From positions 1 to 47,123 of the forward strand of contig JANXBU010000003.1 in NCBI GenBank assembly GCA_025060505.1: DNA of 47,123 nt, read 5' to 3'. This DNA comes from Candidatus Calescibacterium sp. (lineage in GTDB: Bacteria > Calescibacteriota > Calescibacteriia > Calescibacteriales > Calescibacteriaceae). A program made the translations under genes and the position numbers. The notes under the pieces were generated by a model. It ran no database searches. It worked only from the letters and a program-made list of their open reading frames with translations, and was not told the origin of the DNA. This document shows, piece by piece, positions 1,569-42,994 of the stretch (its first letter is position 1; every line of letters begins with the position of its first letter).

Positions 1569-1576
1569 CTTATATT
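1569..1576. promoter_or_regulatory. Overlapping divergent -10 elements for mscS and yicC
   Basis: On the plus strand TATATT (1571-1576) lies eight bases before the yicC ATG. On the minus strand TATAAG (complement of 1569-1574) lies nine bases before the mscS ATG. The two hexamers share four bases, so polymerase could occupy only one direction at a time. Assignment is by position and sequence only, and the -35 elements are not clear. Confidence 0.45.
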
Positions 1577-1584
1577 TTATAAAA

Positions 1585-2325
1585 ATGAAAAGCATGACGG
1601 GATACGGTATTGAATACTCTTTTGTTGGAGGAAAAAAAATAAGCTGTTGGATAAAATCTGTCAACTCAAAATATCTTGAAATTTACTTTGATATACCAGC
1701 GGAACACATTGGTGTTGAGCCGGATATGAGACGCGAGATAAGGAAGAGAGTCAAAAGAGGAAAAGTGGAAGTTTTTATAAGAGAAGAAAAAACAGGTTTT
1801 CCTATATCTTTTCGAAGAGTTAAGTCAGAAGATATTCTTTCTCTGTTTCAATCTGCTTTGATCAAATTTGAGGAATCAAGAGAAGATGAAGGACAAGTTA
1901 TAGCTCAGGATCTATTGCAGAGAATAAATAAGATAAGAGAATTTATTTCAGACATAGAAAATTTACACGCAAGTTTTCCAGAAAGAATTAAAGCTATTTT
2001 GAAAGAAAGAGTTCAGCAAATTGCCGTTGAGATGGGTATGGAAAACATTCCGGAGGACGTAATAGATAAAGCTGGTGTTGTTCACATTGTAAGGAAAGCA
2101 GATATATCTGAGGAGATAACAAGAATAAAATCGCATATTGATTCCTTTGAAGATGAAGTCGAGAGAGAAGGTGATGGCAAAAAGCTTATGTTCATAGCTC
2201 AGGAGATTTTGAGAGAACTCAATACGATGGGGGCAAAATCCCTTGACATCAGAATATCTGAAAAAGTTATAGAATCAAAACTCGAAATAGAAAGAATAAG
2301 GGAACAACTTCATAATGTTGAGTGA
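1585..2325 (+). CDS. yicC: YicC-family endoribonuclease
   Basis: The protein begins MKSMTGYG, the hallmark N-terminus of YicC/YloC proteins. It ends with the conserved DUF1732 signature (MGAKSLDIRISEKVIE followed by IERIREQLHNVE). Members are endoribonucleases reported to act in small-RNA and mRNA turnover in the cytoplasm. At 246 residues it is shorter than the roughly 290 of E. coli YicC; the missing part is in the middle, and both conserved ends are present. It is preceded by a leaderless-type promoter and no ribosome binding site. Upstream neighbours in many bacteria include gmk and rpoZ, but here the downstream gene is an unknown, separated by 291 bases. Confidence 0.92.
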   Translation: MKSMTGYGIEYSFVGGKKISCWIKSVNSKYLEIYFDIPAEHIGVEPDMRREIRKRVKRGKVEVFIREEKTGFPISFRRVKSEDILSLFQSALIKFEESREDEGQVIAQDLLQRINKIREFISDIENLHASFPERIKAILKERVQQIAVEMGMENIPEDVIDKAGVVHIVRKADISEEITRIKSHIDSFEDEVEREGDGKKLMFIAQEILRELNTMGAKSLDIRISEKVIESKLEIERIREQLHNVE

Positions 2326-2616
2326 TTTTTGAAATCATGCTTCAGAGATTTTTGAATTCGGTGTTTTTGAATTTGTAGTTATCCTGCTTTGTCAGGAGGT
2401 TTATTAATCTTATCTTACTATAACGAAGCAACAGTTTTGGTATTTTTGGTGTTTCTTTTTATTGGCAAAGCAATTGAACATCTTCAAAATATGTTTCCTT
2501 TTATTTTGATGATATAGAAGAATTAACAGCCCTATTTTATTCATATCAGCATTGCGACTTTTTAAATTATTCTGAAAAAGATTTTTTCCAAATTTGTTTT
2601 AATATTTTGAAGTAGT
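2323..2616. other. 291-base gap after yicC, no gene seen
   Basis: The yicC stop codon lies in a six-base-pair hairpin (TGATTT 2323-2328, TTG loop, AAATCA 2332-2337). There is no following T-run, so it is a poor terminator candidate. The rest is AT-rich with no convincing reading frame, tRNA fold or repeat. A TAATAT hexamer at about 2600-2605 lies eleven bases before the next ATG and may be its -10 element. Confidence 0.4.
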
Positions 2617-3030
2617 ATGGAAGAGATTGCACAAATTGTAGAGGAGAGTTTGAGCAAAGGTCAAAAATACTTTGAGAGAAATGGACAGATTTTCAAAATA
2701 AGAGACTACGAGCTTACAATTATATTGAAACCAGACCTCTCAGATGCAAATGAAAAAGAGCTAATCGAGCAAATAAAGTCTCAGATAAGAAGAAACTTAG
2801 GTAAGATAAACTACGAAGAAGAGCCGAAGCTTAGACTTTTTGCCTACAATATAGGAAAATATGATAGAGGAAAGTATTATTATGTGGAATACTCAGGAAT
2901 AGCTGAGCCAGAGATAACTTTTCTGAAATTGAATCCAGGGGTTATAAGATATCTTTTAGTTTTGAAAGAACCTATTGAGACAAAAGGACATATATGGAGA
3001 AGAAAAGTCAAAGAGAGTCTGGTAAAGTGA
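2617..3030 (+). CDS. Conserved-looking hypothetical protein, 137 aa
   Basis: I do not recognise a family. The protein is soluble-looking, with no signal peptide or membrane segment. It has a helical N-terminus rich in Glu/Lys (1-20), an alternating strand/helix middle, a Tyr-rich stretch (about 85-95, YDRGKYYYVEY) and a basic C-terminus. Codon use matches the neighbours (AGA, ATA rich), and the frame is uninterrupted. It sits between yicC and the mlaE-like permease on the same strand, 52 bases upstream of the latter. Start ATG 2617 has no Shine-Dalgarno sequence, consistent with the leaderless pattern of first genes in this window. Confidence 0.7.
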   Translation: MEEIAQIVEESLSKGQKYFERNGQIFKIRDYELTIILKPDLSDANEKELIEQIKSQIRRNLGKINYEEEPKLRLFAYNIGKYDRGKYYYVEYSGIAEPEITFLKLNPGVIRYLLVLKEPIETKGHIWRRKVKESLVK

Positions 3031-3082
3031 AAAAGAACTAAACATATTATTCAGTAAACGGTAATACCTAAAATACGAAAAT

Positions 3083-3823
3083 GTGGGTATAATATCAAAC
3101 TTTTTGGGTATTATTCTGTTTTCATTGCAATCTTTTCGAGAAACTCTGAAACCTCCTTTTAGATTTTCTCTGGTTTTCAAGGAGATAGAATTTTCAGGTG
3201 TGAGATCTTTACCTATAATAGCAATAACTTCGGTTTTCTTAGGCATGGTTTTCACTCTTCATTCAATCAGGGCTTTTTCAGCAGTGGGTATGGAATCTCT
3301 TGTTGGACCTTCTGTTATGCTTTCTTTTGCTCGCGAGCTTGCGAGCGGGTTTGCAGGTCTTATAATAACCGGAAGAGTGGGAGCTGCTTACTGCTCTCAG
3401 ATAGGAACAATGAAAATAACCGAACAACTTGACGCCCTGTATATAATGGGTATCTCTCCTATACAGTATGTTGCTGTTCCGAAAATTGTGGCTCTTGCAA
3501 TAGTTATGCCGCTTATATACTTTTTCTTTATGTTCCTTGGTATGATCGGTGGTATGATCTCGGCTTCTTTCTACTCAATTGAACCTTTTTTGTTTCTGAA
3601 AGATGTTCACGGATGGGTCGAAATAGAAGATCTTGTCTTAGGGGTTGTTAAATCTTCTGCCTTTGGAATGACAATCGGATTCACTTCATGCTACTTTGGT
3701 TTCATAACTGCAGGTAGTACAGAAGCTGTTGGACAAAGAACAACAGAATCAATTGTATATTCCATGATAATAATCTTTATCGTGAATTATGTTATCTCCT
3801 CTCTGTTCTATTTGATCAAGTAA
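3083..3823 (+). CDS. mlaE: MlaE/YrbE-type ABC transporter permease (phospholipid transport)
   Basis: This 246-residue polytopic protein has the MlaE/DUF140 signature: SVFLGMVFTLH near residue 53, then GLIITGRVGAAYCSQIGTM and TEQLDALYIMGISP near 90-125. Five or so hydrophobic segments follow the amphipathic N-terminus. The family forms the inner-membrane core of Mla-type ABC systems that move phospholipids between the membranes of diderm bacteria. The ATPase (MlaF) and substrate-binding MCE protein (MlaD) usually lie beside it; neither is present here, so partners must be elsewhere. The start is GTG 3083, because the ATG at 3081 is in another frame and stops after three codons. Confidence 0.88.
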   Translation: MGIISNFLGIILFSLQSFRETLKPPFRFSLVFKEIEFSGVRSLPIIAITSVFLGMVFTLHSIRAFSAVGMESLVGPSVMLSFARELASGFAGLIITGRVGAAYCSQIGTMKITEQLDALYIMGISPIQYVAVPKIVALAIVMPLIYFFFMFLGMIGGMISASFYSIEPFLFLKDVHGWVEIEDLVLGVVKSSAFGMTIGFTSCYFGFITAGSTEAVGQRTTESIVYSMIIIFIVNYVISSLFYLIK

Positions 3824-3912
3824 AATAGAAAAATTCTTGTTTTGTTCTATGCTGAATATAGAAACCTTATAAACAAAGAAATTTGTAAAAAATTTTGTTT
3901 TTATGAACAAAT

Positions 3913-4536
3913 ATGCTTTCAAAATTAAAGAAAAAAGAAATGTATAGTAACCCATCTAAACTTTGGAAAAGATTCTTTTTCTTCTTTTTGGTTTTTTCCG
4001 GAATTTTCGGAGTAGTCGCTCTTGCTCAACAATCTTCTAATCAAAAAGTTCCACAGGTCAAAGAAAAAGAGTTTGATTTCTGGAAAGCTGTTTTCTACAA
4101 AAATCCTTTTCCGGAAAAATTACCTCAGCCTATAAAGTTTCCACACAATACGCACGTTCAAAAGCTTGGTCTGGATTGTAAGTTTTGTCACTACTATGTT
4201 GAAAAATCAAAATATGCAGGCGTTCCATCTGTTGCTGATTGTATGGGATGTCACAGATATGTATCAACTGTTATGGAGAAACCAGATATAAAGAAACTTT
4301 TTCAGTACTATGAAAAAGGGGAACCAATTCCATGGCTCAAAGTTCACAATCTCCCAGACTTCGTAAGATTTACACACAGAATGCACATTAATGCGGGAGT
4401 AGAGTGCTACGAATGTCATGGAGATGTTGCTTCTATGGATACTGCTCAAAGAGTTGCTCCGCTTTCTATGGATTGGTGCTTGAATTGCCACAGACAGAGA
4501 AATGCATCAACAGAGTGTTATACTTGCCATTACTAG
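3913..4536 (+). CDS. actA: Alternative complex III subunit ActA, pentahaem cytochrome c
   Basis: First gene of the ACIII operon. Five haem-c motifs CXXCH begin at residues 89 (CKFCH), 110 (CMGCH), 165 (CYECH), 189 (CLNCH) and 202 (CYTCH), matching the five-haem ActA subunit. A basic stretch and one hydrophobic helix (about 18-38) make an uncleaved anchor or signal, placing the haems in the periplasm. In ACIII, ActA takes electrons from the iron-sulfur subunit ActB and passes them toward ActE or a soluble cytochrome. The final haem motif lies at the extreme C-terminus. It is followed 14 bases later by actB, whose Shine-Dalgarno sequence overlaps the stop region. ATG 3940 is an alternative start. 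Confidence 0.92.
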   Translation: MLSKLKKKEMYSNPSKLWKRFFFFFLVFSGIFGVVALAQQSSNQKVPQVKEKEFDFWKAVFYKNPFPEKLPQPIKFPHNTHVQKLGLDCKFCHYYVEKSKYAGVPSVADCMGCHRYVSTVMEKPDIKKLFQYYEKGEPIPWLKVHNLPDFVRFTHRMHINAGVECYECHGDVASMDTAQRVAPLSMDWCLNCHRQRNASTECYTCHY

Positions 4537-4550
4537 GAGGTAAAAAATAA

Positions 4551-7580: not shown

Positions 7581-7626
7581 ATTTTGAAGAGATGATAAAT
7601 ATGGAAAACCGAGGGAGGTATAGTTT

Positions 7627-9030: not shown

Positions 9031-9538
9031 GGTAGTTTTAGGTAAGTTTACCTACGTAGATGATGTAGAAGAGGCAATAGATGAACTCCTGAAAGCAGGT
9101 TATAACAAAAAAGATATACAATTTATATCATCATTTCCAATTGAAGATATTATAGATAAACTTGGTGGAACAGATAGTCCGGTAAAATTTCCAGTTCTTG
9201 TAGGTGGTCTTACAGGTTTTTCTGCAGCCATTGCTCTTGTGCTCGTAACATCGCTTGCTTATGTTCTGCCGGTTGGTGGAAAGCCTGTTGTTGCTTGGAT
9301 ACCATATGTAATAGTTATGTTTGAGATGACAGTTCTTTTAGGATCAATTTTCAATCTGCTTGGAGTTATATTGTTGTCACGCTTACCAGATATATTTTTC
9401 TTCCTCGGTTGGAGAGCCTATCTTCCTTCCTTCTCTGATGACAAATTCGGAATAGCCGTATACACAGATAAAATAGATGAGGTGGTTTCAATTTTTAAGA
9501 AGAACAACGTAGAGGAGGTCAGGGAATATGAGGTTTAA
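9023..9538 (+). CDS. actD: Alternative complex III subunit ActD (DUF3341)
   Basis: The start is set at ATG 9023, preceded by the excellent Shine-Dalgarno sequence GGAGGTGA (9010-9017). This gives 171 residues starting MGKVVLGKFTYVDDVEEAID, the usual DUF3341 beginning. The open frame extends upstream to 8903, but that part lies inside actC and is not coding. ActD has a cytoplasmic alpha/beta domain, two transmembrane helices (about 62-84 and 98-122) with a PVGGKP loop, and a short cytoplasmic tail. It is a structural subunit of ACIII without cofactors. It overlaps actC by eight bases and actE by eleven. Confidence 0.93.
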   Translation: MGKVVLGKFTYVDDVEEAIDELLKAGYNKKDIQFISSFPIEDIIDKLGGTDSPVKFPVLVGGLTGFSAAIALVLVTSLAYVLPVGGKPVVAWIPYVIVMFEMTVLLGSIFNLLGVILLSRLPDIFFFLGWRAYLPSFSDDKFGIAVYTDKIDEVVSIFKKNNVEEVREYEV

Positions 9539-10076: not shown

Positions 10077-10104
10077 GATGAATTAATAGGGAGGGAATTA
10101 CGTT

Positions 10105-11304: not shown

Positions 11305-11310
11305 TATAAT
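11305..11310 (+). promoter_or_regulatory. TATAAT -10 element, leaderless-type, for the lipoprotein gene
   Basis: A perfect TATAAT lies seven bases before ATG 11318, so transcription should start at or within a base or two of the start codon. There is no Shine-Dalgarno sequence. It lies just past the actF stop at 11298, separating this gene from the ACIII operon. Confidence 0.55.
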
Positions 11311-12214: not shown

Positions 12215-13294
12215 CTATCTTTTGTATATAGGGCACTGCTTGCAGAATTGCGGTGGATTGCTTCTGAAATTTCTTATAAATTTCGCTCTATTTTGGTAGA
12301 AAGTCTTTTCATTCTCAAATATATTACCCATAATAGATTCCGTTGGAAAGAAGAACGGATACGGCATACAGCATGGATATAAAGTTCCGTTCACTCTTAT
12401 GGTTGCCATAAAATATGCTAAGTAGCAATATCCGTTTGCTCTTGTTCCTATATCTTCAAAATTGTTCAGAACAATCTCTATTTTGTTTTTGTATTTTTCT
12501 TTGAGCCCCTGAACCTTTTGACGGGATTTTTCAGATGGAACATGGAGTTCCGGAACATTGAAAAGTAATCTTTGAAACTTGATTCTATCTACGCCTATTT
12601 TGATTCCATTTTTTATTATTTCTTCTGCATCTTCTGTATTCTCCTCTGAAAGAACTGCGTTTATACTTATTATTGGTAGGTATTTTCCAGTCTTTCTCTT
12701 TGCTTCAACGAGTTTTTGGAGGTTATGCAAAACTTTTTTAAGATCACCTCCTTCTCTTATTTTTGAAAATTTCTTTTCATCAAAAGAATCAACAGATGCG
12801 TGTATCTCATATAGACCTGATTGAATAACCTGATATGGATCTGGCAAAACAGAGAAATTTGAGAATATATTTACCAATATGTTTCTTTCAGAGCTTGCAT
12901 ACTTTATCATCTTTATTGTATCCTTAGATAGAAATGGTTCCCCAGATAGGTTCATTATAGCTACAAATGCTTCTGGTATTTTTTCAAATATTTTTGAGAA
13001 ATCTTCAAACCTCATGAATTCCTTTTTGTTCTCACCAGCTCTGCACATCAGACAGTTGAAATTGCATCCACTTACGGTTTCAATCTGAAGTATGCTCGGT
13101 TTTATGTTGTTGATGATTATTCCGTATCTCCATGCAACGAAAGACAGAAGTATGTTTTTGGCTCTTCTCAAAGCTAATTTGGCATTGTTCAGCGGAAAAA
13201 TTTTGTTCGCTACGTATGATATTCTCATTATTTCTTCTTTCGTTCTTATTCTTCTTGAAATTCCAAACCTACTGAGTATAAAATCTAAAACCAT
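12215..13294 (-). CDS. Radical SAM enzyme with SPASM-like C-terminal cysteines (paralogue 1)
   Basis: This is a 359-residue radical SAM protein. The CX3CX2C cluster motif is Cys77, Cys81 and Cys84, preceded by the family-specific lead PSILQIETVSGCN. GEPFLSKD provides the SAM-contacting glycine-rich motif. The C-terminal half has further cysteines (GYCYLAYF, YPCCMPYPFF, FCKQCPIYKR) in a SPASM-like arrangement for auxiliary iron-sulfur clusters. It shares its N-terminal helix pattern (arginine pair, then 'NILLSF..WRYG') and C-terminal CxxCPIY end with three other proteins at 16684, 17802 and 18879. The substrate is unknown; SPASM proteins often modify peptides, but some act on other substrates. 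It diverges from a membrane protein gene with only 16 bases between starts. Confidence 0.85.
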   Translation of the reverse strand: MVLDFILSRFGISRRIRTKEEIMRISYVANKIFPLNNAKLALRRAKNILLSFVAWRYGIIINNIKPSILQIETVSGCNFNCLMCRAGENKKEFMRFEDFSKIFEKIPEAFVAIMNLSGEPFLSKDTIKMIKYASSERNILVNIFSNFSVLPDPYQVIQSGLYEIHASVDSFDEKKFSKIREGGDLKKVLHNLQKLVEAKRKTGKYLPIISINAVLSEENTEDAEEIIKNGIKIGVDRIKFQRLLFNVPELHVPSEKSRQKVQGLKEKYKNKIEIVLNNFEDIGTRANGYCYLAYFMATIRVNGTLYPCCMPYPFFFPTESIMGNIFENEKTFYQNRAKFIRNFRSNPPQFCKQCPIYKR

Positions 13295-13307
13295 ACAATA
13301 AAAATTA
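13294..13307. promoter_or_regulatory. Compact divergent promoter region between radical SAM 1 and GT-C-like gene 1
   Basis: The whole intergenic region is 16 bases (13295-13310). On the plus strand TACAAT (13294-13299) lies eleven bases before ATG 13311. On the minus strand TAATTT (complement of 13302-13307) lies seven bases before ATG 13294. The -35 regions would fall inside the opposite coding sequences. The elements are assigned by position only. Confidence 0.35.
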
Positions 13308-15176: not shown

Positions 15177-16682
15177 ATGAATCTCCTAAGAAATTTGAAT
15201 GCAGAAAGCTTCAAGCGAAATGCAACTTTTCTATTCTTTTTGCTCTGTACTTTATGCATAATGTATCCCGAGAATATCAATGATTTGTTCTACTACGATG
15301 ATAATCCAATAAGATACATGATAGCAAAAAGCTGGGTAGAGGGCAAACTTTCGGAGCAAGAAAAAAAATTTTTTCTCGCTTATGGGTCATCAGAGATATA
15401 CATACCATTCTTCTATATAGCTAGGGTATTAAAAGTAGATTATGAGCTTGCATATAATCTTTCATCTATACTGATTTTGATTCTCAGCTTGTTATGGATT
15501 TTCTACTCTCTGCCAAAGGACTTCAAAGATATATATATTATTTTTCCTTTTTTATGTTTGTTTGCCATTGTATGTCTTACAAAAGGTTCAATGCATTGGC
15601 TTGTTGTATCATCTGTACTACTAAACATAATTTGCTCTAGGGAGGTAAAGCCAATACACTATATAGCTATGGGTATATCTTACATAATTTCTCCACCACT
15701 TGTTGTTATCTCCGGAATGCTGTTTTTGATTTTTCTGTTTCGTGGAGATAGGAAGAAAGCTTTTTTGTTTGTGATTCCATTTTTATTTTCAATACCGAAG
15801 TTCATTATTGTATCTGAAATAACTCTTGAGGAGGTAAAAAAAACTCTTAATATGGCTCACCAGATTGGTAGACAAATTGTTGGAGAAACTCATTCATTTG
15901 CACCACCAGTACCATCTGTATTTATAAGACCATTCAAAGCAGATTATTTTGAGAATCCTTTACTTCCCGGAGTTATCATATACCTTACTTTTATCAGGAG
16001 TATTTTTACAAGAGATAAATTTGCGGTATTTGTTTTTGTATCTTTCTATGTATTCATATTTGTTTCAATTCTAATTTTTGAGTTGTGGATAAAAGGTTAC
16101 AATATACCAGATATAGTTGTAAGTATGCTTTCGTTTTTTTTCACATCAAATCCTTTCAGGTTTGCTCCAATAGCATTGGCTTACCTGATAATAAATTCCG
16201 AAAATAAATCTTATGACAAGGTTTTGGGTTTGATTGTAGTCACAGCAATTGTTTTGGCATCTGTTCAATCTGTTGCAAGTAAACAAGGAGAACTACCAAG
16301 AAAGATACCGGAGGAGATAAAATCTTTTATAAGATTTTTGAATGAAATAGATCATAAAAGGATCTTGGTTGAGGGCGATGTACACTTTATAGAAAATGGA
16401 AAACTAGTTCATCCACTCTATAACTCTCATATAATATCGTATATAGTTGCTGAAGTTAATAATAAAGAATTTTACGGTGGCGTTTTCCCTTGGCAACTTT
16501 ATAAATATAACTTTTTCTTTGGTAAGTTTAATTCAAAACCTCTGCAAGAATCAGATATACTTGATTTCATAATTAAAAATAGAATAGAGGCAGTTATATG
16601 TTGGTCAGATCAATGCACAGATTTCTTCTCTAAAGACAAAATATTTCATTTTGGTAAGTTCAAATTTATAAATTTAAAGTGA
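15177..16682 (+). CDS. Polytopic membrane protein, GT-C glycosyltransferase-like (2)
   Basis: This 501-residue protein has about ten hydrophobic helices and a soluble C-terminal tail from about residue 390. An acidic loop follows helix 1 (LFYYDDNPIRYM, about 41-52), where GT-C enzymes carry a catalytic or metal-binding Asp. A polyprenyl-sugar-dependent glycosyltransferase is therefore plausible but unproven. The stop codon (TGA 16680-16682) is one base before the GTG start of the second radical SAM gene, a strong sign that the two proteins are co-translated and work in the same process. Confidence 0.65.
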   Translation: MNLLRNLNAESFKRNATFLFFLLCTLCIMYPENINDLFYYDDNPIRYMIAKSWVEGKLSEQEKKFFLAYGSSEIYIPFFYIARVLKVDYELAYNLSSILILILSLLWIFYSLPKDFKDIYIIFPFLCLFAIVCLTKGSMHWLVVSSVLLNIICSREVKPIHYIAMGISYIISPPLVVISGMLFLIFLFRGDRKKAFLFVIPFLFSIPKFIIVSEITLEEVKKTLNMAHQIGRQIVGETHSFAPPVPSVFIRPFKADYFENPLLPGVIIYLTFIRSIFTRDKFAVFVFVSFYVFIFVSILIFELWIKGYNIPDIVVSMLSFFFTSNPFRFAPIALAYLIINSENKSYDKVLGLIVVTAIVLASVQSVASKQGELPRKIPEEIKSFIRFLNEIDHKRILVEGDVHFIENGKLVHPLYNSHIISYIVAEVNNKEFYGGVFPWQLYKYNFFFGKFNSKPLQESDILDFIIKNRIEAVICWSDQCTDFFSKDKIFHFGKFKFINLK

Positions 16683-18878: not shown

Positions 18879-19955
18879 TTAGAAATTTCTGCAATATACT
18901 GGACACCCTTTACAGTACTCGGGTTTAGCTTTTCTGAAGTTTTCCAGGAAAGTTTGTCTTTTTGATATGGCTCCATCTACATCAGATATGTAACCGAAGT
19001 TCTGATTTCTTTTTGAGATTGGTGCAGCGTAAACGCATGGAAAAATCTTTCCTTCAACATCTATGAATATAGTTGTGTAAGCAAATAAGCAGTAGCCAGT
19101 GAAAAAGTCCCCTTTTTCATAATCATAGTGAGAGGTCAGAAGTATTCTGGCTCTACCCTTATACTTTGATTTAAGACTTTTTACTTTCTCTATTTGTTGC
19201 TTCGTTGGTATATCTCCGGGGGTATCTAAAATGTCTACCTTAAACACAGTTTGAAAGAAAAATGTATCAACTCCGTAAGATAAACCGAGTTCAACAACAC
19301 TTTCTATATCTTCTGTATTATTGTCAAATAGTGTGATGCTGAACCCTATTTTTGGTGTATATGAGTTCAGAGTCTTCTTTCGCTCAATTATCAACTTCAA
19401 ATTCTCTATAAATTTATCTAAGTTTCCATTTTTTCTTATTTGGGAAAATTCCTGAGGATTTGTCGAGTCTATAGAAGCGAAAACATATTTAACTCCAGTT
19501 TTTATCAGCTCATCCGGGTCTATTTTTGAGAGGTTTGTAAAGGGTGTTATTTGAAATCCCTTCTGTACTGCGTACTTGAGCATCTTATATGTTTCTTTGT
19601 TCAAAAAGGGCTCTCCCACACCATAGGGAAATATAAAGGTAGCATCGTGGAATTTTTCTAAGATTTCCTTGAAGGTGTCAAATGACATAAATTGTATTTC
19701 AAATTGGCTAGCCGGACACATAACGCATGAGAAATTACATCCACGAACAACCTCTATAAACAAAGTCGCGGGTCTCAAGGGTTTGAATATATGAAAGCCA
19801 AATCTTCTTGCTATATATGAATTTACGATATTTCTGAACCTTTTTGCGTTCATACTTTTGATGAAATCAAAACCAAATCTTCTGGTGAGAAATCCTAAAT
19901 CTTCAGCGATTTTGTTTATAGGCACAGCTGATTCGGTAAATTTGTTTATGGTCAT
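18879..19955 (-). CDS. Radical SAM enzyme with SPASM-like C-terminal cysteines (paralogue 4)
   Basis: This is a 358-residue paralogue when started at ATG 19955. A TTG two codons upstream is also possible, but a TAAAAT hexamer nine bases before the ATG (complement of 19965-19970) favours the ATG. The cluster motif CNFSCVMC follows TLFIEVVRG, and the glycine-rich motif is GVGEPFLNKE. SPASM-like cysteines are in GYCLFAYT, FPCVYAAP and YCKGCPVYCRNF. The N-terminal helix 'AKRFRNIVNSYIARRFG' is shared with paralogue 3. With paralogue 3 it forms a two-gene leftward unit next to a UbiA-family gene. Confidence 0.85.
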   Translation of the reverse strand: MTINKFTESAVPINKIAEDLGFLTRRFGFDFIKSMNAKRFRNIVNSYIARRFGFHIFKPLRPATLFIEVVRGCNFSCVMCPASQFEIQFMSFDTFKEILEKFHDATFIFPYGVGEPFLNKETYKMLKYAVQKGFQITPFTNLSKIDPDELIKTGVKYVFASIDSTNPQEFSQIRKNGNLDKFIENLKLIIERKKTLNSYTPKIGFSITLFDNNTEDIESVVELGLSYGVDTFFFQTVFKVDILDTPGDIPTKQQIEKVKSLKSKYKGRARILLTSHYDYEKGDFFTGYCLFAYTTIFIDVEGKIFPCVYAAPISKRNQNFGYISDVDGAISKRQTFLENFRKAKPEYCKGCPVYCRNF

Positions 19956-20019
19956 AACCAATCTATTTTAGTGATTTCAAAGAAAATTTGTTAAATATTC
20001 TTAGGTTCTTCCTATTATT

Positions 20020-20802
20020 TTAATTCAGTATGTCGGGTAACCTTTCAAAAGCAAATATACCAATACACAGTACTGCGAAGTTAATCCTATAGAACATTCT
20101 GTACAATTGTATTGCTATTTTCTTTCTGAGCATACTTAGTATGAAGACCAGGTGTGTCAGAAAGGCTACCGGGAGTAAAAACTTCAATATATTATTACTC
20201 GTATTAATATACATAAGCAAGTAGGCTGAGAAAAATAGTGCAGATGAGATGAACATTGAGATCTTAGTTCCTAAAACAGACGATAGGTTCTTTTGTCTCA
20301 GGTCTTTATCTTCATCAATGTCTTGAACAAGGTCAACTATATAACCTCCTGTGAAAGCGAGTGAAACTCCTGATGCAAGAATAAAGGTCTGAAAAGAGAA
20401 GTTTGAATTGTCTGAGAAAATTACTCCAAAATAAAATTGTAGTATACCGCCGAAGAAATGTAGAATAAGATCAGGAAGAACCATTAGTTTTCGAGATGTG
20501 TAGTAAAAAATCCAGTTTGCAAATATCAGCAAAGGAAAAATGCCATGTATGAAGCCTTTTTGTAAGCCGATGGTGCAACTTGCAGTTAGAAGTACAACAG
20601 AGCGAATCAGATAATTCTTGGAAGAAAAAAAATCTCCTAGAGCAAAAACAGATAAAGCGCATAGAAAACTTGAAGCATAAAGTATAAGCAAATCTGAAAA
20701 AAGCAAGGTCTCGGTGAACATAAAGTATCCGAATACAGGGATACCGGAAAGAAATAGAGCTTCAAAAACTCTTAATTTTATAAAGAAACTCAGCAACACC
20801 AT
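20020..20802 (-). CDS. UbiA-family membrane protein with degenerate first Asp motif
   Basis: This 260-residue protein has about eight hydrophobic helices. The second UbiA motif is clear (DLVQDIDEDKDLRQKNL, Asp157-Asp167), where Asp residues bind Mg-diphosphate. The first motif, normally NDxxDxxxD, is reduced to GDFFSSKN around Asp57, so classical prenyl-transfer chemistry is uncertain. UbiA relatives attach prenyl or polyprenyl chains to quinone precursors, haem, glycerol phosphate or sugars. It lies upstream of radical SAM genes 4 and 3 on the same strand, with 64 bases to paralogue 4, and has its own TATTAA element six bases before the ATG. A role in making or using a lipid carrier for this cluster is inferred. 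Confidence 0.8.
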   Translation of the reverse strand: MVLLSFFIKLRVFEALFLSGIPVFGYFMFTETLLFSDLLILYASSFLCALSVFALGDFFSSKNYLIRSVVLLTASCTIGLQKGFIHGIFPLLIFANWIFYYTSRKLMVLPDLILHFFGGILQFYFGVIFSDNSNFSFQTFILASGVSLAFTGGYIVDLVQDIDEDKDLRQKNLSSVLGTKISMFISSALFFSAYLLMYINTSNNILKFLLPVAFLTHLVFILSMLRKKIAIQLYRMFYRINFAVLCIGIFAFERLPDILN

Positions 20803-20808
20803 AAAAAT

Positions 20809-20814
20809 TTAATA
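20809..20814 (-). promoter_or_regulatory. -10 element, leaderless-type, for the UbiA-family gene
   Basis: TATTAA on the minus strand lies six bases before ATG 20802, with no Shine-Dalgarno sequence. A 16-base perfect palindrome lies about 28 bases further upstream. Confidence 0.4.
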
Positions 20815-21063: not shown

Positions 21064-21831
21064 TTATGGAGTGCTTTTTAGTTTTGAGCAGGCGGGAGAG
21101 TATCCGAGCTCGCAGGATATATACAAGTATTTTTTATCTCCGGTTTTCTCCCAGTTTTTCCAACATCCATAAGCATCAAAATATTCGCAGGATTTTCTGA
21201 GATATTCTTTTGGGGACTTATTATATTTTGGATCGTTTTCGTATATCTCATAGAGATAAAAGCAGGCTGTACCATTTTTCATTGAGCAGGCCCTTTCAAA
21301 CAATTCTATACCTTTGTTTTTATCTTCATTAGTGAATCTCCCGTTATAATACATAAATCCAAGTATATAACAATCATTTGGGCTTTTTTCTCCTTTGCAT
21401 TTTCTCGTTGCTATCTCGTAAGCTTTCTTGAGAGATTGTTCTGATTTATCTTTTCTCCCAGTCGACTCATATATTGCAGCTAAGTTCAGACAACCTCCGG
21501 AGAGATTGAATTCCTCGCAGGCTATCTGATATATCCTTTCGTTGTTATCTTTGAATATCATGTAGGCTCTTTTTGAGTACTCTGATCCTATCTTTAGTCT
21601 TTCTTTCATTTCAATTTTTTTTGTGGTTCCCCATAGACCTTCAATATAAATTATAGAGAGTTTGGCACATGAGTATCCATCCTCTAAAATACATCCCGCG
21701 TCATAGTATTCTATAGCTTTATTGTAATCTTTTTCTTGCTCATATTTCTTTGCATTTTTTAAGCAATCTGTGATGGAACCGCTGTAACAGTTCTGAGATA
21801 TTAGAAGTAGTGAGAATACAAATTCTATCAT
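21064..21831 (-). CDS. Exported Sel1-like repeat protein with paired cysteines (Hcp-like)
   Basis: This 255-residue protein has a short N-terminal hydrophobic signal (residues 2-13). It is followed by about five Sel1/TPR-type helical repeats with recognisable A-x-L-x-x-I-Y and G-x-x-Y cores. Nearly every repeat carries two cysteines about eight residues apart (GCILEDGYSC, ACSMKNGTAC, SCEYFDAYGC, SCELGYSPAC), as in the Helicobacter cysteine-rich proteins where they form disulfides. That supports a periplasmic or extracellular location. Such scaffolds bind proteins or peptides. It diverges from the giant cysteine-rich protein gene with 67 bases between starts; TAAAAT (complement of 21839-21844) lies seven bases before its ATG. 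Confidence 0.85.
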   Translation of the reverse strand: MIEFVFSLLLISQNCYSGSITDCLKNAKKYEQEKDYNKAIEYYDAGCILEDGYSCAKLSIIYIEGLWGTTKKIEMKERLKIGSEYSKRAYMIFKDNNERIYQIACEEFNLSGGCLNLAAIYESTGRKDKSEQSLKKAYEIATRKCKGEKSPNDCYILGFMYYNGRFTNEDKNKGIELFERACSMKNGTACFYLYEIYENDPKYNKSPKEYLRKSCEYFDAYGCWKNWEKTGDKKYLYISCELGYSPACSKLKSTP

Positions 21832-21886
21832 ATCTCAAATTTTAAATACAGTTTCAATTTTCACAATTTTCTCTGAACTTGATGAT

Positions 21887-21892
21887 TATAAT
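21887..21892 (+). promoter_or_regulatory. TATAAT -10 element, leaderless-type, for the giant protein gene
   Basis: A perfect TATAAT lies six bases before ATG 21899, with no Shine-Dalgarno sequence between. The mRNA would begin at the start codon. No good -35 hexamer is evident. Confidence 0.55.
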
Positions 21893-30524: not shown

Positions 30525-30530
30525 TAAAAT
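30525..30530 (+). promoter_or_regulatory. -10 element, leaderless-type, for the second Rpn gene
   Basis: TAAAAT lies eight bases before ATG 30539 and no Shine-Dalgarno sequence is present. Confidence 0.35.
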
Positions 30531-35018: not shown

Positions 35019-35021
35019 TCT

Positions 35022-35275: not shown

Positions 35276-35279
35276 CTTT
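35253..35279. promoter_or_regulatory. Perfect 8-base inverted repeat over the promoter, probable operator
   Basis: AAAGTGTA (35253-35260) and TACACTTT (35272-35279) are exact complements with an 11-base spacer. The repeat fills the promoter spacer and covers the -10 element. This is where a dimeric repressor would bind, implying regulated expression of the downstream three-gene cluster. No regulator gene is adjacent. Confidence 0.6.
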
Positions 35280-35301
35280 ACTTTTTATTGGGAGGAAGAA
35301 A

Positions 35302-36363: not shown

Positions 36364-36376
36364 TGGGAGGATATAT

Positions 36377-37480
36377 ATGAAAAAAGGAAGAGTTGCAGTA
36401 CTTTATGAAGTAGGTAAACCACTTGAATTCAGGGAGTATCAGGTTCCAGATCCTCAGGACGGAGAAGTTGTAATTGAGTGCCTGAGAACAAATATATGCG
36501 GTTCAGACATACACATGTTCAAAGGAGAAGCCTTTTCAGCTTTTGGAGGACTATTTTATCCGATCGTTCTTGGACATGAATTTGTTGGCAGAGTTTTTAA
36601 AATAGGAAAAGGAGTAAAAACAGATAGTCTAGGCAATCCTATATCCGAGGGCACGATTGTTTCTCCCGTATATTATAAAGGTTGTGGATCTTGTCACCTA
36701 TGTTCTGATGGGAGAGAATATGCTTGTTTTAGATCTCTTCTTTCCGTTCTGCGAGAAGCCGAAAAACCTCCCTATTTTGTCGGTGCTTTTTCTGAGTTTT
36801 ATGTTATAAGAGCTGGACAGAAGTTCTATGCTGTTCCTTCAGATATCCCTGTTAAATATGCATCTGCTGTGAATTGCGCTCTTTCACAGGTGATCTTCGG
36901 ACTCAATCAGATAGGTTTAAGATATGGTGAAAGTGTTGTCATACAGGGCGCAGGAGGGCTTGGACTTCTTGCTACAGCTGTTGCAAAAGATATGGGAGCT
37001 TCAAAAGTTGTTGTTGTTGACTCTGTTGAAAATAGACTGGGGCTCGCAAGAGATTTCGGAGCAGACTATACTGTAAATCTTAACGGAGATTTTAGGGAGA
37101 GAGTATCAAAAATAAAAGAGGTAACCGGAGGGGGAGCAGATGTTGTTGTAGAGCTTGCTGGAACGCCGATAGCTATAAAAGAAGGAATGAAGTACATAAA
37201 AAGAGGTGGAAGATACTTAGTTATGGGAGCCGTGAATCCAAAGCAAAAATTTGATGCAGATCCTTCTGTTTGGATTGGTGAGAACATAACTATAAAAGGT
37301 GTTTCTCTGTATAGTTCTCACAGTATTGTTATGGCATACAACTTTATCCAAAGAAACAAAGACAAATTTCCTTTTGACAAAATATTTGCTGTGTTTGAAT
37401 TTGAGAAAGTAAATGAAGCTATAAGTTCGGCTGTTGAAAAAAAATATCCAAGAGTTCAGATATTGATTAATGATACATGA
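36377..37480 (+). CDS. Zinc-dependent alcohol dehydrogenase-family protein
   Basis: This 367-residue medium-chain dehydrogenase has catalytic-zinc ligands in ICGSDIHMF and LGHEFVG. Four structural-zinc cysteines are in GCGSCHLCSDGREYAC, and the nucleotide-binding GAGGLGLLATAVAKDMG precedes VVVVD, whose Asp favours NAD(H). The family oxidises alcohols or polyols and includes sorbitol- and threonine-dehydrogenase relatives; the substrate is unknown. GGGAGG (36364-36369) gives strong translation. It lies between the LLM enzyme and an acyl-CoA-dehydrogenase-like protein, suggesting a small oxidative pathway. Confidence 0.9.
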   Translation: MKKGRVAVLYEVGKPLEFREYQVPDPQDGEVVIECLRTNICGSDIHMFKGEAFSAFGGLFYPIVLGHEFVGRVFKIGKGVKTDSLGNPISEGTIVSPVYYKGCGSCHLCSDGREYACFRSLLSVLREAEKPPYFVGAFSEFYVIRAGQKFYAVPSDIPVKYASAVNCALSQVIFGLNQIGLRYGESVVIQGAGGLGLLATAVAKDMGASKVVVVDSVENRLGLARDFGADYTVNLNGDFRERVSKIKEVTGGGADVVVELAGTPIAIKEGMKYIKRGGRYLVMGAVNPKQKFDADPSVWIGENITIKGVSLYSSHSIVMAYNFIQRNKDKFPFDKIFAVFEFEKVNEAISSAVEKKYPRVQILINDT

Positions 37481-37571
37481 TTACGAAAATTGATAAATTG
37501 TATGATTGAGTCTATGTGTAATCTCACAAATATAGAATTAATTTCGAAAAAATATATGGAGGTTTCGTATT

Positions 37572-38627
37572 ATGATAAGTTTTGAGTTATCTGAAGAGGA
37601 AAAGATCATAAAGAAAACAGCGGAGGATTTTGGAAAGATTCTAAGAGAGCAAAGTAGGAAAGCAGAGAAGGAAGGAGTCAGTGATCAGATAAAGAGAAAA
37701 TATAGCGAACTTGGTTTTGGATTAATGGATATATCAGAGGAACTCGGTGGCTTTGGATATGGATTATTCAGAAAAGTTTTGGCCTTGCAGTGTATGAGCT
37801 GGGGTTGTGCGGCAACAACCCTTTCTCTTGAACTAAGTCCCGTAAATCTTCATCTCATCCAATCAATTGATGCAGATAAAGATACAAAAACGAAATTCAA
37901 AGAAGAAGTTATGCATAATCCATGGGGAATATATATAGATTTTGATGGAAATTTTTCTATAAGGAATCAGAAATTCTCAGGCAAAGCGTGGGCTGTTTTA
38001 GGCAAGAATATAAGTAAGTTCGCTCTCATCAAAGGAGATGAATTTTTTATTTTTGACGAATTTGACATTGTATCAAAAAAGCCACTCGCTTTAGATGCCG
38101 TTGGGTTGAATGAAGTAAATCTTGAAAATTCGTCTCCTCTTTATTCTTCTCGTATAAACTATAAGAGATTTGTAAGCGTTATCAGGGTTTATCTTACCGC
38201 AATTCTTTCTGGTATTCTGAGAGCTTCTTTTGACTATGCATCCCAGTATGCTGTTGAACGGGAAGCTTTTGGAAAGAAAATAGCTCATCATCAAGGTTTG
38301 GCTTTTGCTCTTTCTGATTTTTCCATTTCAGTTTCAATAGCAGATCTGTGTGCTTGGAGATCTGCTTGGTCCTTAGATTCTGGCCAAGAAAATTTTGAGC
38401 AGATATGTGCTGATTCATTTTCTTATACCGCTGAGCTTGCTGAGAAATTTACCGTCTGGGGGGTGCAAATTTTGGGAGGACATGGTTTTGTTAAAGATCA
38501 TATGGTTGAAAAATGGATGCGAGAAGCTAAAGCTATTTCTCTTCTTTTTGGTGGGAAATATTACGCTGATCTTGATTCCTTCGGATTAAACCAAGGAAAT
38601 TTATTAGACCAACAACAGAAAGTATAG
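37572..38627 (+). CDS. Acyl-CoA dehydrogenase-family protein lacking the usual catalytic glutamates
   Basis: The 351-residue protein has the N-terminal helical domain (ELSEEEKIIKKTAEDFGK), GLMDISEELGGFGYG, and the C-terminal FAD-binding helices with YAVEREAFGKKIAHHQ and LGGHGFVKDHMVEKWMREAK. The catalytic base of MCAD-type enzymes, in 'YEGT', is replaced by LFGG (residues 325-328). The alternative Glu position used by isovaleryl-CoA-type enzymes appears to be Lys198. It may therefore catalyse another reaction or serve as a non-catalytic partner. GGAGG (37559-37563) precedes the ATG. The last 95 bases overlap the convergent glycosyltransferase gene. Confidence 0.87.
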   Translation: MISFELSEEEKIIKKTAEDFGKILREQSRKAEKEGVSDQIKRKYSELGFGLMDISEELGGFGYGLFRKVLALQCMSWGCAATTLSLELSPVNLHLIQSIDADKDTKTKFKEEVMHNPWGIYIDFDGNFSIRNQKFSGKAWAVLGKNISKFALIKGDEFFIFDEFDIVSKKPLALDAVGLNEVNLENSSPLYSSRINYKRFVSVIRVYLTAILSGILRASFDYASQYAVEREAFGKKIAHHQGLAFALSDFSISVSIADLCAWRSAWSLDSGQENFEQICADSFSYTAELAEKFTVWGVQILGGHGFVKDHMVEKWMREAKAISLLFGGKYYADLDSFGLNQGNLLDQQQKV

Positions 38628-40065
38628 ATAAAATCGGCTCAACTGTATAAAATCTTCTTGGCTGAGCTGACTCAAAGGTTGTCACAATAAAAGTTCCATA
38701 AATGAATATAAAAAGCAAAATTACTGGCTTCATTTTCGGTCTTATGATTGAAAGAAAAGATAGAATCAGTGTTGATATTCTTATGAGCCAACCAAGGGTG
38801 TAAAATATCCAAAGTTTTAATGGAAGGAGCTTTAATCTCTTTTCTCGTATTTCTTCTAATGTTTCTTTTATTTTACCTTCAAGTATGTTTGGTATTATAT
38901 ATCTTGTCATTTCTTGTGAGGATGGTTTTATGTTCCCTGTAGTCATGTAATAAAGTTGAGCTATACCGAAGGGTGGAAGTAATCTTATAAATCCTGCGAT
39001 ATGTATTTCAATTGGGTATTTCCAGAATTTTTTAACAATCTCTTCTCTACATATGTTTGCTATTTGAGTTTGTTTTGTGAGATCAAAGTTATAATTTTGT
39101 ACTTGCTCATCGTTTTCAAATTTAGTGTTCCATCCAAATCTTTCGGAAGCTTTGTTTAGGATTTCAAGATCAAATTGTTGTCTCTCAAGTTTTATCCATT
39201 TTCCTTTATACATTTTATCTCTTATTTCACAGAAGAAAACATGCGCTCCGGGGCGAAAGATCGGAATTTTCCATATCATATAGTTCCTGATTATCCAAGG
39301 TGAGATTACCAGAAAAGCTGCAATCCCACAAAATATAAAGTTTTTGATTTTTCTGGAGAGGATTAAGGTTAAAAAGGGTAGTGCGATAGAAAAGAAAAAC
39401 CAAAGAGGGTGGAGTAGAGATAAAATACCAGATAAAAATCCTGCAAGCGAAGACTTTTTTACTGAAATATTTCCGGATACTAAAATAAGCACGATCATCA
39501 ATAAGAGGAATCCTTGAAGTGTTTCTGTCATAAATGTCTGAGTGAAAACTGTCGCTGAAGGTGAAACGGCGTATATTATAGACGGAACAAATGAGTATAT
39601 TCCTACCAGGCCCAAATTCTTTGAGATCAGGTATATAACAGGTATTTTCAGAGAATCTACAATGTTTTGAGAAAAGATAACGATTTCTCTTCTTTCTCCA
39701 AATAATATGTAGTGTATAGCTATAAACAGTGGATATATGGGTGGTCTGTATATTTCTGGTTCATTTGATGGAACACATTTTTCGGGGAAGTCCTCTGGAA
39801 TTTCTCTTGGACAGTCATTTATATATTTTTTCTTCTCTATAAGATTTATAGCTGGAAACTCATATGTGTAAGAATCTATTGTGTAAAACGCTCTTTTAGG
39901 ATCTTCCGATATATAGGAGAAAAAGAAAATAATTCTTATCAGAAATCCGAGACCTGTAATTATTAGTATATTTTTCACCTTTCTCGCTAGGTACCTAATT
40001 ACTGTATAGTTATAGAATCCTTTGAATTTGTTTTGGTTGGAATATTTCAGATGACATATTTTCAT
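38533..40065 (-). CDS. GT39/ArnT-like membrane glycosyltransferase
   Basis: The 510-residue protein has about ten hydrophobic helices. A long first periplasmic loop contains IDSYTYEFPAINLIEKKKY and PEIYRPPIYPLFIAIHY, which match the Asp-bearing and R-P-P-x-Y-P-L-F motifs of PMT/ArnT-type GT-C enzymes. These use polyprenyl-phosphate sugars to modify proteins or lipids outside the inner membrane. TATAGT (complement of 40072-40077) lies six bases before ATG 40065, again leaderless-like. The 3' end overlaps the acyl-CoA-dehydrogenase-like gene by 95 bases tail to tail. Both frames look real, the enzyme's conserved motifs being well outside the overlap. Confidence 0.85.
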   Translation of the reverse strand: MKICHLKYSNQNKFKGFYNYTVIRYLARKVKNILIITGLGFLIRIIFFFSYISEDPKRAFYTIDSYTYEFPAINLIEKKKYINDCPREIPEDFPEKCVPSNEPEIYRPPIYPLFIAIHYILFGERREIVIFSQNIVDSLKIPVIYLISKNLGLVGIYSFVPSIIYAVSPSATVFTQTFMTETLQGFLLLMIVLILVSGNISVKKSSLAGFLSGILSLLHPLWFFFSIALPFLTLILSRKIKNFIFCGIAAFLVISPWIIRNYMIWKIPIFRPGAHVFFCEIRDKMYKGKWIKLERQQFDLEILNKASERFGWNTKFENDEQVQNYNFDLTKQTQIANICREEIVKKFWKYPIEIHIAGFIRLLPPFGIAQLYYMTTGNIKPSSQEMTRYIIPNILEGKIKETLEEIREKRLKLLPLKLWIFYTLGWLIRISTLILSFLSIIRPKMKPVILLFIFIYGTFIVTTFESAQPRRFYTVEPILSILSVVGLINFLGLIRRNQDQRNISHQKEEK

Positions 40066-40126
40066 TGTCGCACTATAAAAAATCAGAAATTCGCTTGCCT
40101 GTTATCAGAGGAGATAAGAAATACTT

Positions 40127-40411
40127 ATGGAGTTTGAGGAAATTTTGGAGCTTTGTGCTCTTGATATTCCTTTAGATAAAAAAGAAGATTTCAAAAGGCA
40201 GGTGGAGAAAATTATTCAGTTTTACAATACTTTGTCTGAGCTTGATCTTGGGGATATAAAACCTACAACGTGGAGATTTGAAAGCAAACAGGAGTTCAGA
40301 GACGATATACCTGAGAGGTTTGAAGATGCAGATATGATAGTCAAGGGGTTTCCAAGAGAGGTTCAAGGATTCTGTTTCATACCACAAGTTCTTGAGTACA
40401 GAAAGAAGTAG
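40127..40411 (+). CDS. gatC: Asp/Glu-tRNA amidotransferase subunit C
   Basis: This 94-residue protein follows the GatC pattern: ELCALDIPLDKKEDFKRQVEKIIQFYNTLSELDLGDIKPTT, then FRDDIPE, and the typical end GFCFIPQVLEYRK. GatC holds together the GatCAB amidotransferase that converts mischarged Glu-tRNA(Gln) or Asp-tRNA(Asn). gatA and gatB are not in the window. TAAGAA lies six bases before ATG 40127, the usual leaderless layout here, and the gene is divergent from the glycosyltransferase. Confidence 0.87.
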   Translation: MEFEEILELCALDIPLDKKEDFKRQVEKIIQFYNTLSELDLGDIKPTTWRFESKQEFRDDIPERFEDADMIVKGFPREVQGFCFIPQVLEYRKK

Positions 40412-40499
40412 AATCTGCTTTGATCTTTATTTTGTTTCAGAAATTTCAAGATTTTCATTCTTGTTTTTCTGTAACCGTGATTTTTTATGTATTACTAAT

Positions 40500-40531
40500 T
40501 TGATATTTTATTATTATCAATTTGATTTTTT
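40500..40531 (+). terminator. Weak hairpin with T-rich tail after gatC
   Basis: TTGATA (40500-40505) and TATCAA (40515-40520) form a six-pair stem with a nine-base loop, followed by TTTGATTTTTT. The stem is AT-rich, so stability at high temperature would be low. It lies between convergent gatC and the O-antigen-ligase-like gene. Confidence 0.28.
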
Positions 40532-42980
40532 ACTTACTTTCTTCCGTTAAATATTTTTTCAGATTTATGTCTTGGAATGCTTTGTTAATTATCTCTGGTC
40601 TAACAGATGAAGCTGCGGTGAGAAATTCTATTGCTCTTTCTTTTTCTCCTTTTGCGGCGTATAGGGAAGCTAAATTGAAGAGTTTAGCTGCTTTTTCGTT
40701 ATCATCTCTTGGCTCAAAAGAGTTCAGAATTTTTTCTGCTTCATCAAATTTTCCTTCGTTTATATAAAGTGTTGCGAGATTTATTATCACTCTCGGATTA
40801 TCTGGTTTTATTGAAAGAGATAATTTTAGATACTCCTCTGCTTTATCATAGTTCTTCTTTGCTGTATAAGCTGTTCCAAGAACAAAGTATGATAAAAATC
40901 TTACTTCTGCTTCATTGAAAACAATTTCGGGTACAGATAAACCATATCTTTTCTTAGATGGAGAATTATCTATTTCATAAATTGCTCTCTGTGCATATTC
41001 AATTGCTTTATCATAGTCTCCTTTCATTATATATGCGTTTGCTACGGTGGAGTATGCTTCGGGAATATTTGCTGGATTCGAATCAGTTGATCTCAGAGTA
41101 TATTCTATACCTTTATCTATCTGCCCTATCTGTATATACATTTTTCCGAGTTCTCTTCTTCCTTTACCGAAATATGGCACAAGTTTCAAAGTTCCTTCAA
41201 GAAGATCAAGTACTTTCTGATCTATAACTCCTCCATTCATAGCGAGGTACAGATAAGCCATATCATAGTATGTTCTTTCGGCTGGGTTTTCATAATTCAG
41301 AGAAGCGATATAAAATCGCTCAGATACAGCAAAGTTTCTCATTCTTTTGTAGAATTGACCGTATCTATAATAAACCTCCGCAAGTGTGAAGTTTCTTGCA
41401 GTGAAGAATCCAGGAGATATTCTGCAGATTTTTCTCCACAAGCATACTCCGGACTGGCATCCAGGTATTCCATCTTTGCACGGAGCTCCCAGAGAAGCTA
41501 CTATAAAAAACAAACCAGGGATCAAGTATATTATTTTGTTTCTTGGAGATAATTCTATCTTCTGCTCATTTTTTACATCAGACCGTATCACTTCAAGAAA
41601 GCCAATAAAGAGCCAAAAGTGTGTAACAGAACCAGGCCACTGTAAGGAAAAATTGAACGAAGCTCCCGCTAATGTAGAAACTATTCCAAGTATTATGCCA
41701 GTTGCTACAAAGAAAGGATATTGTTTATTTTTTTCTCCTCCGTCTCTAAAAATATCTAAGTACAATGAAAAAACTATGAAGATTATTCCGAGAAATATTG
41801 AGAATCCAACTATTCCCAAATCCGCCATTATTTGAACATATTCGTTGTGAGCTTTGTCCACTCTTGTATTTGTGAACATTGTAGCTTCATCAAGCAATCG
41901 TGGAGCGTATTTCCATGAAAGAATTTCGTAGTTCCCTGCTCCAACACCAAAGATCGGACTATCTTTCATCATCTCGTATGAAGCGTTCCACGCCATCAAC
42001 CTCGTTGTAACAGAAGACCCAGGACCAACCTGAACGAATGACTTTAATCTTCCAGATATCTGCTTACCATAATCTGTGAAATTCAAGAATGCAGCAAAAA
42101 GTAAAGCTAAAATTACCAGAGTGGCTCCGGTATATCTTAGAACCTTTCTTACATCGGTTCCATATCTTATTTTCTGTAAAGTGTATATTAGAGAAAAACC
42201 TGCCAGAATAGTTGCCATACCAACCCATCCAGCTCTGTTCTTTGCCCCAAATATATAGATGAAGTTTATTAAACTTGAAGTTATAAATAGATACTTCATC
42301 GGACCTCTTTCGGCAAAGGAAAAACCAATGACTAGTGAAAATGCCAAAAGAAGATACTCAACAGCAAAGTTGGAAAGCCCAAATGTAGTTATAGGATTCG
42401 GGTTTCCATACTGATCTGGTGGCATCGGGTAAACACCGATTAGTTGAAGTATTCCGTATCCAGAAACTATAGCAGATGTTATTGCTATAAAGATTGATAT
42501 GATCCTTATTTCTTTTGAGTTCAGAGTTTGGGAAGCAAGATATGCTAGAATTCCGGGACCTATCATAACTGCAAGGTTCTGTGTTTTGTAAGGATTTGTT
42601 GCCCAAAGGGCACTTAGAACTCCATATATAAGAAAAGCAAAGACTAATAAAAATGTTCTTGGAAAATTGAAAAATATATTTTTGTTCTTCCAGTAAATGT
42701 ATGTTATAACTGCTCCAAAAAGCGCCATAGAAACATAACCCCAAGCGATCTTTGACCAAACATATTCTATCTGGTATTTGTAAAGGGGGATCATTACGAC
42801 ATAAAGTATGAATGGAATTATCTTTAATACTGAATCAATGTTTAAACCATCTGATTTATCATCTGCCATTTCGACTCTCCTGATTTTCTCATCTGATCTC
42901 TCTTCTCGCCTTCTTTGTTCTCTTCTGATTTCCTTTATTCTTCTTTTATCTCTTATATCTGTTTTCCTCTGTTCTTTCAT
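40530..42980 (-). CDS. O-antigen ligase/O-oligosaccharyltransferase-like membrane protein fused to TPR repeats
   Basis: This 816-residue protein begins with an unusually charged Arg/Lys/Glu-rich stretch (about 1-45), followed by about twelve hydrophobic helices. The Wzy_C/O-antigen-ligase signature HNEYVQIMADLGIVGFSIFLG (starting near residue 374) places it with WaaL, Wzy and PglL-type enzymes, which transfer glycans from a lipid carrier to lipid A or protein. After the last helix a long soluble region (about 550-810) contains five or more TPR units (YDKAEEYLKLSLSIKPDNP, FDEAEKIL and similar). The TPR tail suggests protein targets or partners. TATAAT (complement of 42995-43000) lies 14 bases before ATG 42980. 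ATG 42869 is an alternative start that omits the charged leader. Confidence 0.87.
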   Translation of the reverse strand: MKEQRKTDIRDKRRIKEIRREQRRREERSDEKIRRVEMADDKSDGLNIDSVLKIIPFILYVVMIPLYKYQIEYVWSKIAWGYVSMALFGAVITYIYWKNKNIFFNFPRTFLLVFAFLIYGVLSALWATNPYKTQNLAVMIGPGILAYLASQTLNSKEIRIISIFIAITSAIVSGYGILQLIGVYPMPPDQYGNPNPITTFGLSNFAVEYLLLAFSLVIGFSFAERGPMKYLFITSSLINFIYIFGAKNRAGWVGMATILAGFSLIYTLQKIRYGTDVRKVLRYTGATLVILALLFAAFLNFTDYGKQISGRLKSFVQVGPGSSVTTRLMAWNASYEMMKDSPIFGVGAGNYEILSWKYAPRLLDEATMFTNTRVDKAHNEYVQIMADLGIVGFSIFLGIIFIVFSLYLDIFRDGGEKNKQYPFFVATGIILGIVSTLAGASFNFSLQWPGSVTHFWLFIGFLEVIRSDVKNEQKIELSPRNKIIYLIPGLFFIVASLGAPCKDGIPGCQSGVCLWRKICRISPGFFTARNFTLAEVYYRYGQFYKRMRNFAVSERFYIASLNYENPAERTYYDMAYLYLAMNGGVIDQKVLDLLEGTLKLVPYFGKGRRELGKMYIQIGQIDKGIEYTLRSTDSNPANIPEAYSTVANAYIMKGDYDKAIEYAQRAIYEIDNSPSKKRYGLSVPEIVFNEAEVRFLSYFVLGTAYTAKKNYDKAEEYLKLSLSIKPDNPRVIINLATLYINEGKFDEAEKILNSFEPRDDNEKAAKLFNLASLYAAKGEKERAIEFLTAASSVRPEIINKAFQDINLKKYLTEESK

Positions 42981-42994
42981 ATCGTTTTTTAAAC

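Follow-up and report, generated by a model that had tools for sequence, protein, structure and literature searches.

The best-known cases of leaderless initiation are those of high-G+C Actinobacteria, Deinococcota and archaea, and the known route for leaderless mRNAs is direct 70S initiation on the 5'-terminal AUG, which we assume for the lineage studied here. Our subject was a TATAAT-like hexamer lying shortly before the start codons of first genes in a stretch of 47,123 nucleotides (the window) from Candidatus Calescibacterium sp. The window was contig 49 (positions 1-47123) of the source genome, G000, which comprised 2.28 Mb in 115 contigs and was 86% complete. The original prediction, made from the window, held that the hexamer was a -10 promoter element, that the genes behind it were leaderless and that leaderless mRNA was a main mode of initiation in this lineage.

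Zheng et al. (2011, PMC3160421) put the share of TA-led (leaderless) genes at ~40% in Deinococcus-Thermus, with a maximum of 46% in Deinococcus; in a subsequent survey, 21.6% of bacterial species were predicted to have leaderless transcription (PMC9581028). Our system was similar to the TA-led genes of Deinococcus-Thermus and Actinobacteria (PMC3160421) in the TA-like -10 box about 10 bp before the start, in the large share of genes involved and in the coexistence of genes led by a Shine-Dalgarno (SD) sequence. It differed from them in that the source genome had a G+C content of 35.5%, the lineage was uncultured and lay outside those groups, and a -35 box at the usual spacing was not detected. 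Another similarity was to the sigma70 promoters of Campylobacter and Helicobacter, where leaderless genes have a TAnaAT box 5-9 nt before the ATG and no -35 box, a periodic A/T-rich signal lies upstream, and leaderless status is little conserved between orthologs (PMC3847290, PMC3656092). In Campylobacter, the periodic A/T signal stands in for the -35 box (PMC3656092, PMC3847290). However, leaderless genes are a small minority there and the -10 box is extended (TGx), whereas in our case about half of the transcription-unit heads were predicted to be leaderless and the TG extension was absent. As in the leaderless mRNAs of Mycobacterium and Deinococcus deserti, initiation at a 5'-terminal AUG or GUG would take place at many transcription units, although those mRNAs are known from mapped transcripts and ours were predicted from sequence. 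We predict, in short, a leaderless-rich system of a known kind that is new for this barely studied lineage and unusually common in it.

The analysis covered 1.14 Mb of the source genome, where a simple hexamer-based caller gave 936 genes (86.5% coding, 35.5% G+C), and 0.37-0.40 Mb from each of G002 and G003 (0.77 Mb together), which belonged to two different sister genera. The close relatives compared were four genomes of the same family as the source genome, and the remaining genomes shared only the domain with it. A gene was considered a head if its neighbour was divergent or if a same-strand gap of 100 nt or more preceded it, and internal if no more than 30 nt separated it from the preceding gene; in most genes the 5'-most candidate was taken as the start codon. 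The strict test looked for TAnnnT at a spacer of 6-9, the spacer being the number of bases between hexamer and start codon. Expected counts were taken from neighbouring windows, and all 64 patterns of the form XYnnnZ were compared.

Among 562 heads without an SD sequence, pooled from the three genera, TAnnnT stood at spacer 6-9 from ATG or GTG in 251 cases versus 74.2 expected (p~1e-57). It ranked first of the 64 patterns at this spacer, the runner-up reaching p~1e-8, and its positional peak was ~3.4-fold above the neighbouring windows. Heads that lacked TAnnnT were enriched in its one-base variants (AAnnnT and TAnnnA, 1.6x each), as expected for degenerate -10 boxes. Shuffling gave z = 5.5-10 in heads versus 0.1-0.3 in internal genes, and this result was robust to the definition of heads and starts. 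The genome-wide upstream alignment that the original prediction had proposed as its check was run on half of the source genome and on the two sister genera, and it revealed a sharp positional peak with loss of SD sequences there; a hexamer frequency no higher than AT content predicts, which had been named as the contrary outcome, was not what we found. Moreover, expectation-maximization (EM) started from TATAAT arrived at a TAAAAT/TATAAT-like motif, T(68%) A(91%) A A A/T T(82%), and 72% of its sites lay at spacer 6-9. From random starts, this motif was recovered in three runs of five, frame-shifted but at an unchanged position, and the other two runs gave a different A/T-rich motif, TAATTTTAAAAT, which lay mostly at spacer 3 and had slightly higher likelihood. 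With a single-base background, EM ended in nonspecific A/T motifs; an order-2 background was used instead.

The hexamer had a characteristic identity and spacing, was restricted to heads, excluded SD sequences and was conserved in the two sister genera. It was seen at ATG and GTG heads, not at TTG heads, and was absent inside operons, which speaks for a promoter signal rather than a leader element. It was very probable that the hexamer represented the -10 element of housekeeping (RpoD-type) promoters and that about half of the transcription-unit heads of the family gave leaderless mRNAs. Counted from the last base of the hexamer, the default transcription start would fall 6-9 bases downstream, at the A/G of ATG/GTG or no more than three bases from it. 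A hexamer with its end 6-9 bases ahead of the start codon would thus make the transcript start at the codon or within three bases of it and leave no room for an SD leader. The 5'-terminal AUG or GUG would then be decoded without anti-SD pairing, by a ribosome (presumably 70S) starting there, and operon-internal genes would more often rely on ordinary SD pairing. The 16S rRNA 3' end carried the canonical anti-SD sequence and SD sites were present at ~30% of close-packed genes; the ribosome of this lineage is an ordinary one.

The share of leaderless genes was estimated with a mixture model (position-weight motif plus order-2 background) that was trained on G000 and applied to G002 and G003. It predicted ~62% of the G000 heads to be leaderless versus 15% with SD, and 44% (38-49%) versus 20% for all ATG/GTG genes; the claim that leaderless initiation is the main mode would accordingly hold for first genes. 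For all ATG/GTG genes of the sister genera, the predicted share was 36% (30-42%) versus 25% SD. The model assigned as leaderless 45% of the ATG heads in G002 (58% of those without SD) and 41% in G003 (67% of those without SD). Its fraction was 0.001-0.012 in SD heads of the three genera, 7-9% in TTG heads and 3-7% in internal ATG genes of G002 and G003, and 3-13% in shifted windows and 0.7% in random sequence among the controls from G000. The predicted fraction in G000 followed gene context, namely 63% at divergent genes, 54-68% at same-strand gaps of at least 100 nt, 40% at 60-99 nt, 27% at 30-59 nt, 13% at 0-29 nt and none at overlapping genes. Start-to-start distances of divergent genes did not differ from those in other genomes, and a comparison of downstream codon usage and folding gave no difference of note.

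Several observations weighed against this interpretation. Matches to TTGACA at 16-18 bp were no better than at neighbouring spacings, and no -35 box was found. The distance trend was less regular in the sister genera because same-strand gaps of at least 100 nt scored only 10-19% there (n=64, wide intervals). The leaderless class was shared between orthologs weakly and not significantly (odds ratio 2.2, p=0.23, 92 pairs). The exclusion of SD sequences was partly mechanical, since the -10 box and the SD sequence occupy the same place. T at position -1 of the start codon was considered as an initiator mark and rejected, since it was strongly preferred (48-61%) in SD and non-SD heads alike, with 48-59% in the SD heads; this preference was perhaps on the translation side. 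Additionally, the leaderless fractions came from a home-made gene caller and from a model partly trained on the same genome, and the transcript starts in all genomes studied were inferred from sequence alone.

The alternative that survived best was a leader in which the A/T-rich hexamer acts as a non-canonical ribosome-binding site (RBS) or enhancer, such as an AT-rich RBS of the Bacteroidetes type or an S1 site, with the promoters lying further upstream. The genome is indeed AT-rich, non-SD AT-rich RBSs occur in the Fibrobacteres-Chlorobi-Bacteroidetes (FCB) group (PMC9581028), and the T at -1 was common to both kinds of heads. However, the enrichment concerned TAnnnT and its one-base variants and not A/T at large, and genes close behind another gene lacked the signal while being translated by the same ribosomes. 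An AT-rich RBS should ignore operon position, but the signal was absent from operon-internal genes. The spacing was also that of a -10 box to a start site, and a phased promoter-like signal accompanied it upstream. We therefore regarded this explanation as unlikely.

There was an even smaller chance that the promoters are real but the transcripts start a few bases past the ATG, so that a later in-frame start is used or the 5'-most ATG was mis-called. The 5'-most candidate was mostly used in our gene set, and just 45% of heads had a homology-supported start that coincided with this candidate. Nevertheless, the peak survived in the set with homology-defined starts (36% of non-SD heads versus 12% in the control, and 0/36 SD heads), it lay at the exact distance for a +1 at the ATG, and the yicC start (M.SMTGYG) aligned in five genomes.

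That TATAAT-like hexamers occur by chance anywhere in AT-rich intergenic DNA was highly improbable and was refuted for the genome-wide pattern. A loose criterion (at least 4/6 match to TATAAT at spacer 6-11) was indeed satisfied by 54% of control windows versus 69% of heads, but the strict peak was ~3.4-fold and was absent from an unrelated genome of equal G+C; chance was possible for the single weak examples mscS, UbiA, gatC and ORF 40065. The same pipeline gave no peak in three of four unrelated genomes, among them the one with G+C equal to that of the source genome, in which 79% of heads had SD. The fourth (G040:C1:100001-300000) had a moderate peak, 37% versus 8% in 30 non-SD heads, which suggests leaderless genes in that genome too. 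In small samples of 50 kb, E. coli had no peak (6% versus 8% in the control) and Thermus pTT27 had 14% versus 2%.

Upstream of the putative -10 boxes, A-tracts near -38, -28 and -19 alternated with T-tracts near -32 and -14, counted from the hexamer, in ~241 heads of G000, G002 and G003. The best period of this A/T signal was 9.5-10 bp, its amplitude was reached by 0/1000 random re-phasings, and it was weak at TAnnnT elsewhere in the same regions. Comparison of the A/T phase with the spacer did not discriminate between the hexamer and the ATG as the anchor. The frequency of G at the TG position of an extended -10 box (TGn) was 0.13-0.14, equal to background. TTG was slightly enriched (8% versus ~2.5%) at the single spacing of 25 bp, 31 bp upstream of the hexamer start; this isolated rise occurred in G000 and G002 and was missing from G003.

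All ten hexamers named in the original prediction were present in the window at the distances given. As -10 boxes, seven of them fitted TAnnnT at spacer 6-9, whereas those of mscS, UbiA and gatC did not; the effective spacing was 6-9 and not the claimed 6-11 bases. On their own, these ten examples were weak evidence because a comparable hexamer turns up in about half of the control windows of AT-rich upstream DNA. Candidate boxes on the plus strand with high model posteriors were TATATT at 1571-1576 before yicC (ATG 1585; spacer 8, posterior 0.92), TATAAT at 11305-11310 before open reading frame (ORF) 11318 (spacer 7, 0.96), TATAAT, an exact match, at 21887-21892 before an ORF of 2161 aa (ATG 21899; spacer 6, 0.97) and TAAAAT at 30525-30530 before ORF 30539, previously called Rpn (spacer 8, 0.90). 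On the minus strand, TAAAAT at 21839-21844 preceded the Sel1-repeat gene 21064-21831 (Pfam Sel1; spacer 7, 0.85), and TAAAAT at 19965-19970 was read at spacer 9 before the radical SAM gene 18879-19955 (Pfam Radical_SAM), which was the earlier "radical SAM 4" taken from ATG 19955 and had an in-frame TTG 6 nt upstream. TATAGT at 40072-40077 (minus strand) fitted TAnnnT at spacer 6 before ORF 38533-40065, but its posterior was 0.36. Four further genes, absent from the earlier list, had TAnnnT at 6-9: ORF 2617 (TATTTT, 2603-2608, plus strand, spacer 8, 0.64), ORF 3083 with a GTG start (TAAAAT, 3069-3074, plus strand, spacer 8, 0.87), the radical SAM gene 12215-13294 (Pfam Radical_SAM; TAATTT, 13302-13307, minus strand, spacer 7, 0.91) and ORF 16684, also with GTG (TAAATT, 16669-16674, plus strand, spacer 9, 0.96).

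The three non-fitting cases were doubtful or weak. Before mscS (ATG 1559), TATAAG at 1569-1574 (minus strand, spacer 9) was not TAnnnT and the model preferred TAAAAT at spacer 14; before the UbiA-like gene 20020-20802, TATTAA at 20809-20814 (minus strand, spacer 6) was passed over by the model for another hexamer at spacer 3. TAAGAA at 40115-40120 (plus strand, spacer 6) before gatC (ATG 40127; Pfam GatC) was not -10-like (posterior 0.32). The assertion that first genes lack SD sequences failed for gatC as well, where an SD-like GAGGAG (40108-40113, plus strand) lay 13 nt ahead of the ATG. As the contrasting class, the predicted GGAGG-type sites of internal genes were read on the plus strand, for example AGGAGGT at 4535-4541 before gene 4551, GGAGGT at 7614-7619 before 7627, at 9514-9519 before 9528 and at 37558-37563 before 37572, and GGAGG at 36366-36370 before 36377. 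The divergent pair mscS/yicC (window 474-2325) had start codons just 25 bp apart, and 16 bp separated the starts of 12215-13294 (minus strand) and 13311 (plus strand); with spacings this short, the promoters must overlap each other or adjacent coding sequence. A scan of viral contigs for YicC gave no match.

Three sigma factors of G000 had a region 2 match (FliA-like, RpoH-like and one RpoD-like), and its family relatives had two or three such matches each. The RpoD-like factor, the only one of its type in the family (in G000 on contig 29, 19047-19787), had, in all five family genomes, YAVPW.xQ.I(I/M) at the place of YATWWIRQAIT in E. coli RpoD, which corresponds to the changes W433 to P and T440 to I/M (E. 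coli numbering). The -35-reading helix T(R/K)ERVRQ was retained. The family genomes carried the P-W motif in 5/5 cases, compared with 2/285 other genomes, and the W-W motif occurred in 0/5 family genomes and 32/36 outside the family. According to reviews, W433/W434 form a wedge stabilising the opened -10 box and T440I relaxes the choice at -12. C at -12 was not enriched in our promoters, though this would be expected if T440I acted as in E. coli, and A was the commonest departure; a causal tie between the sigma changes and the leaderless architecture is therefore hypothetical. It was possible, but rather doubtful, that this deep-branching family rebuilt its housekeeping transcription start, and that an RpoD-like factor without W433 and the -12 contact T440, phased A/T tracts in place of the -35 box and leaderless mRNAs at about half of the units are traits that co-evolved.

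The unusual sigma factor was the most interesting loose end of the analysis, and its alteration would offer a testable link of -10 recognition to leaderless architecture. For start prediction in such genomes, a -10/leaderless model would be preferable to an SD model. Finally, if first genes rely mainly on leaderless initiation in a lineage that is both AT-rich and uncultured, this would provide an independent point on the age of leaderless initiation.

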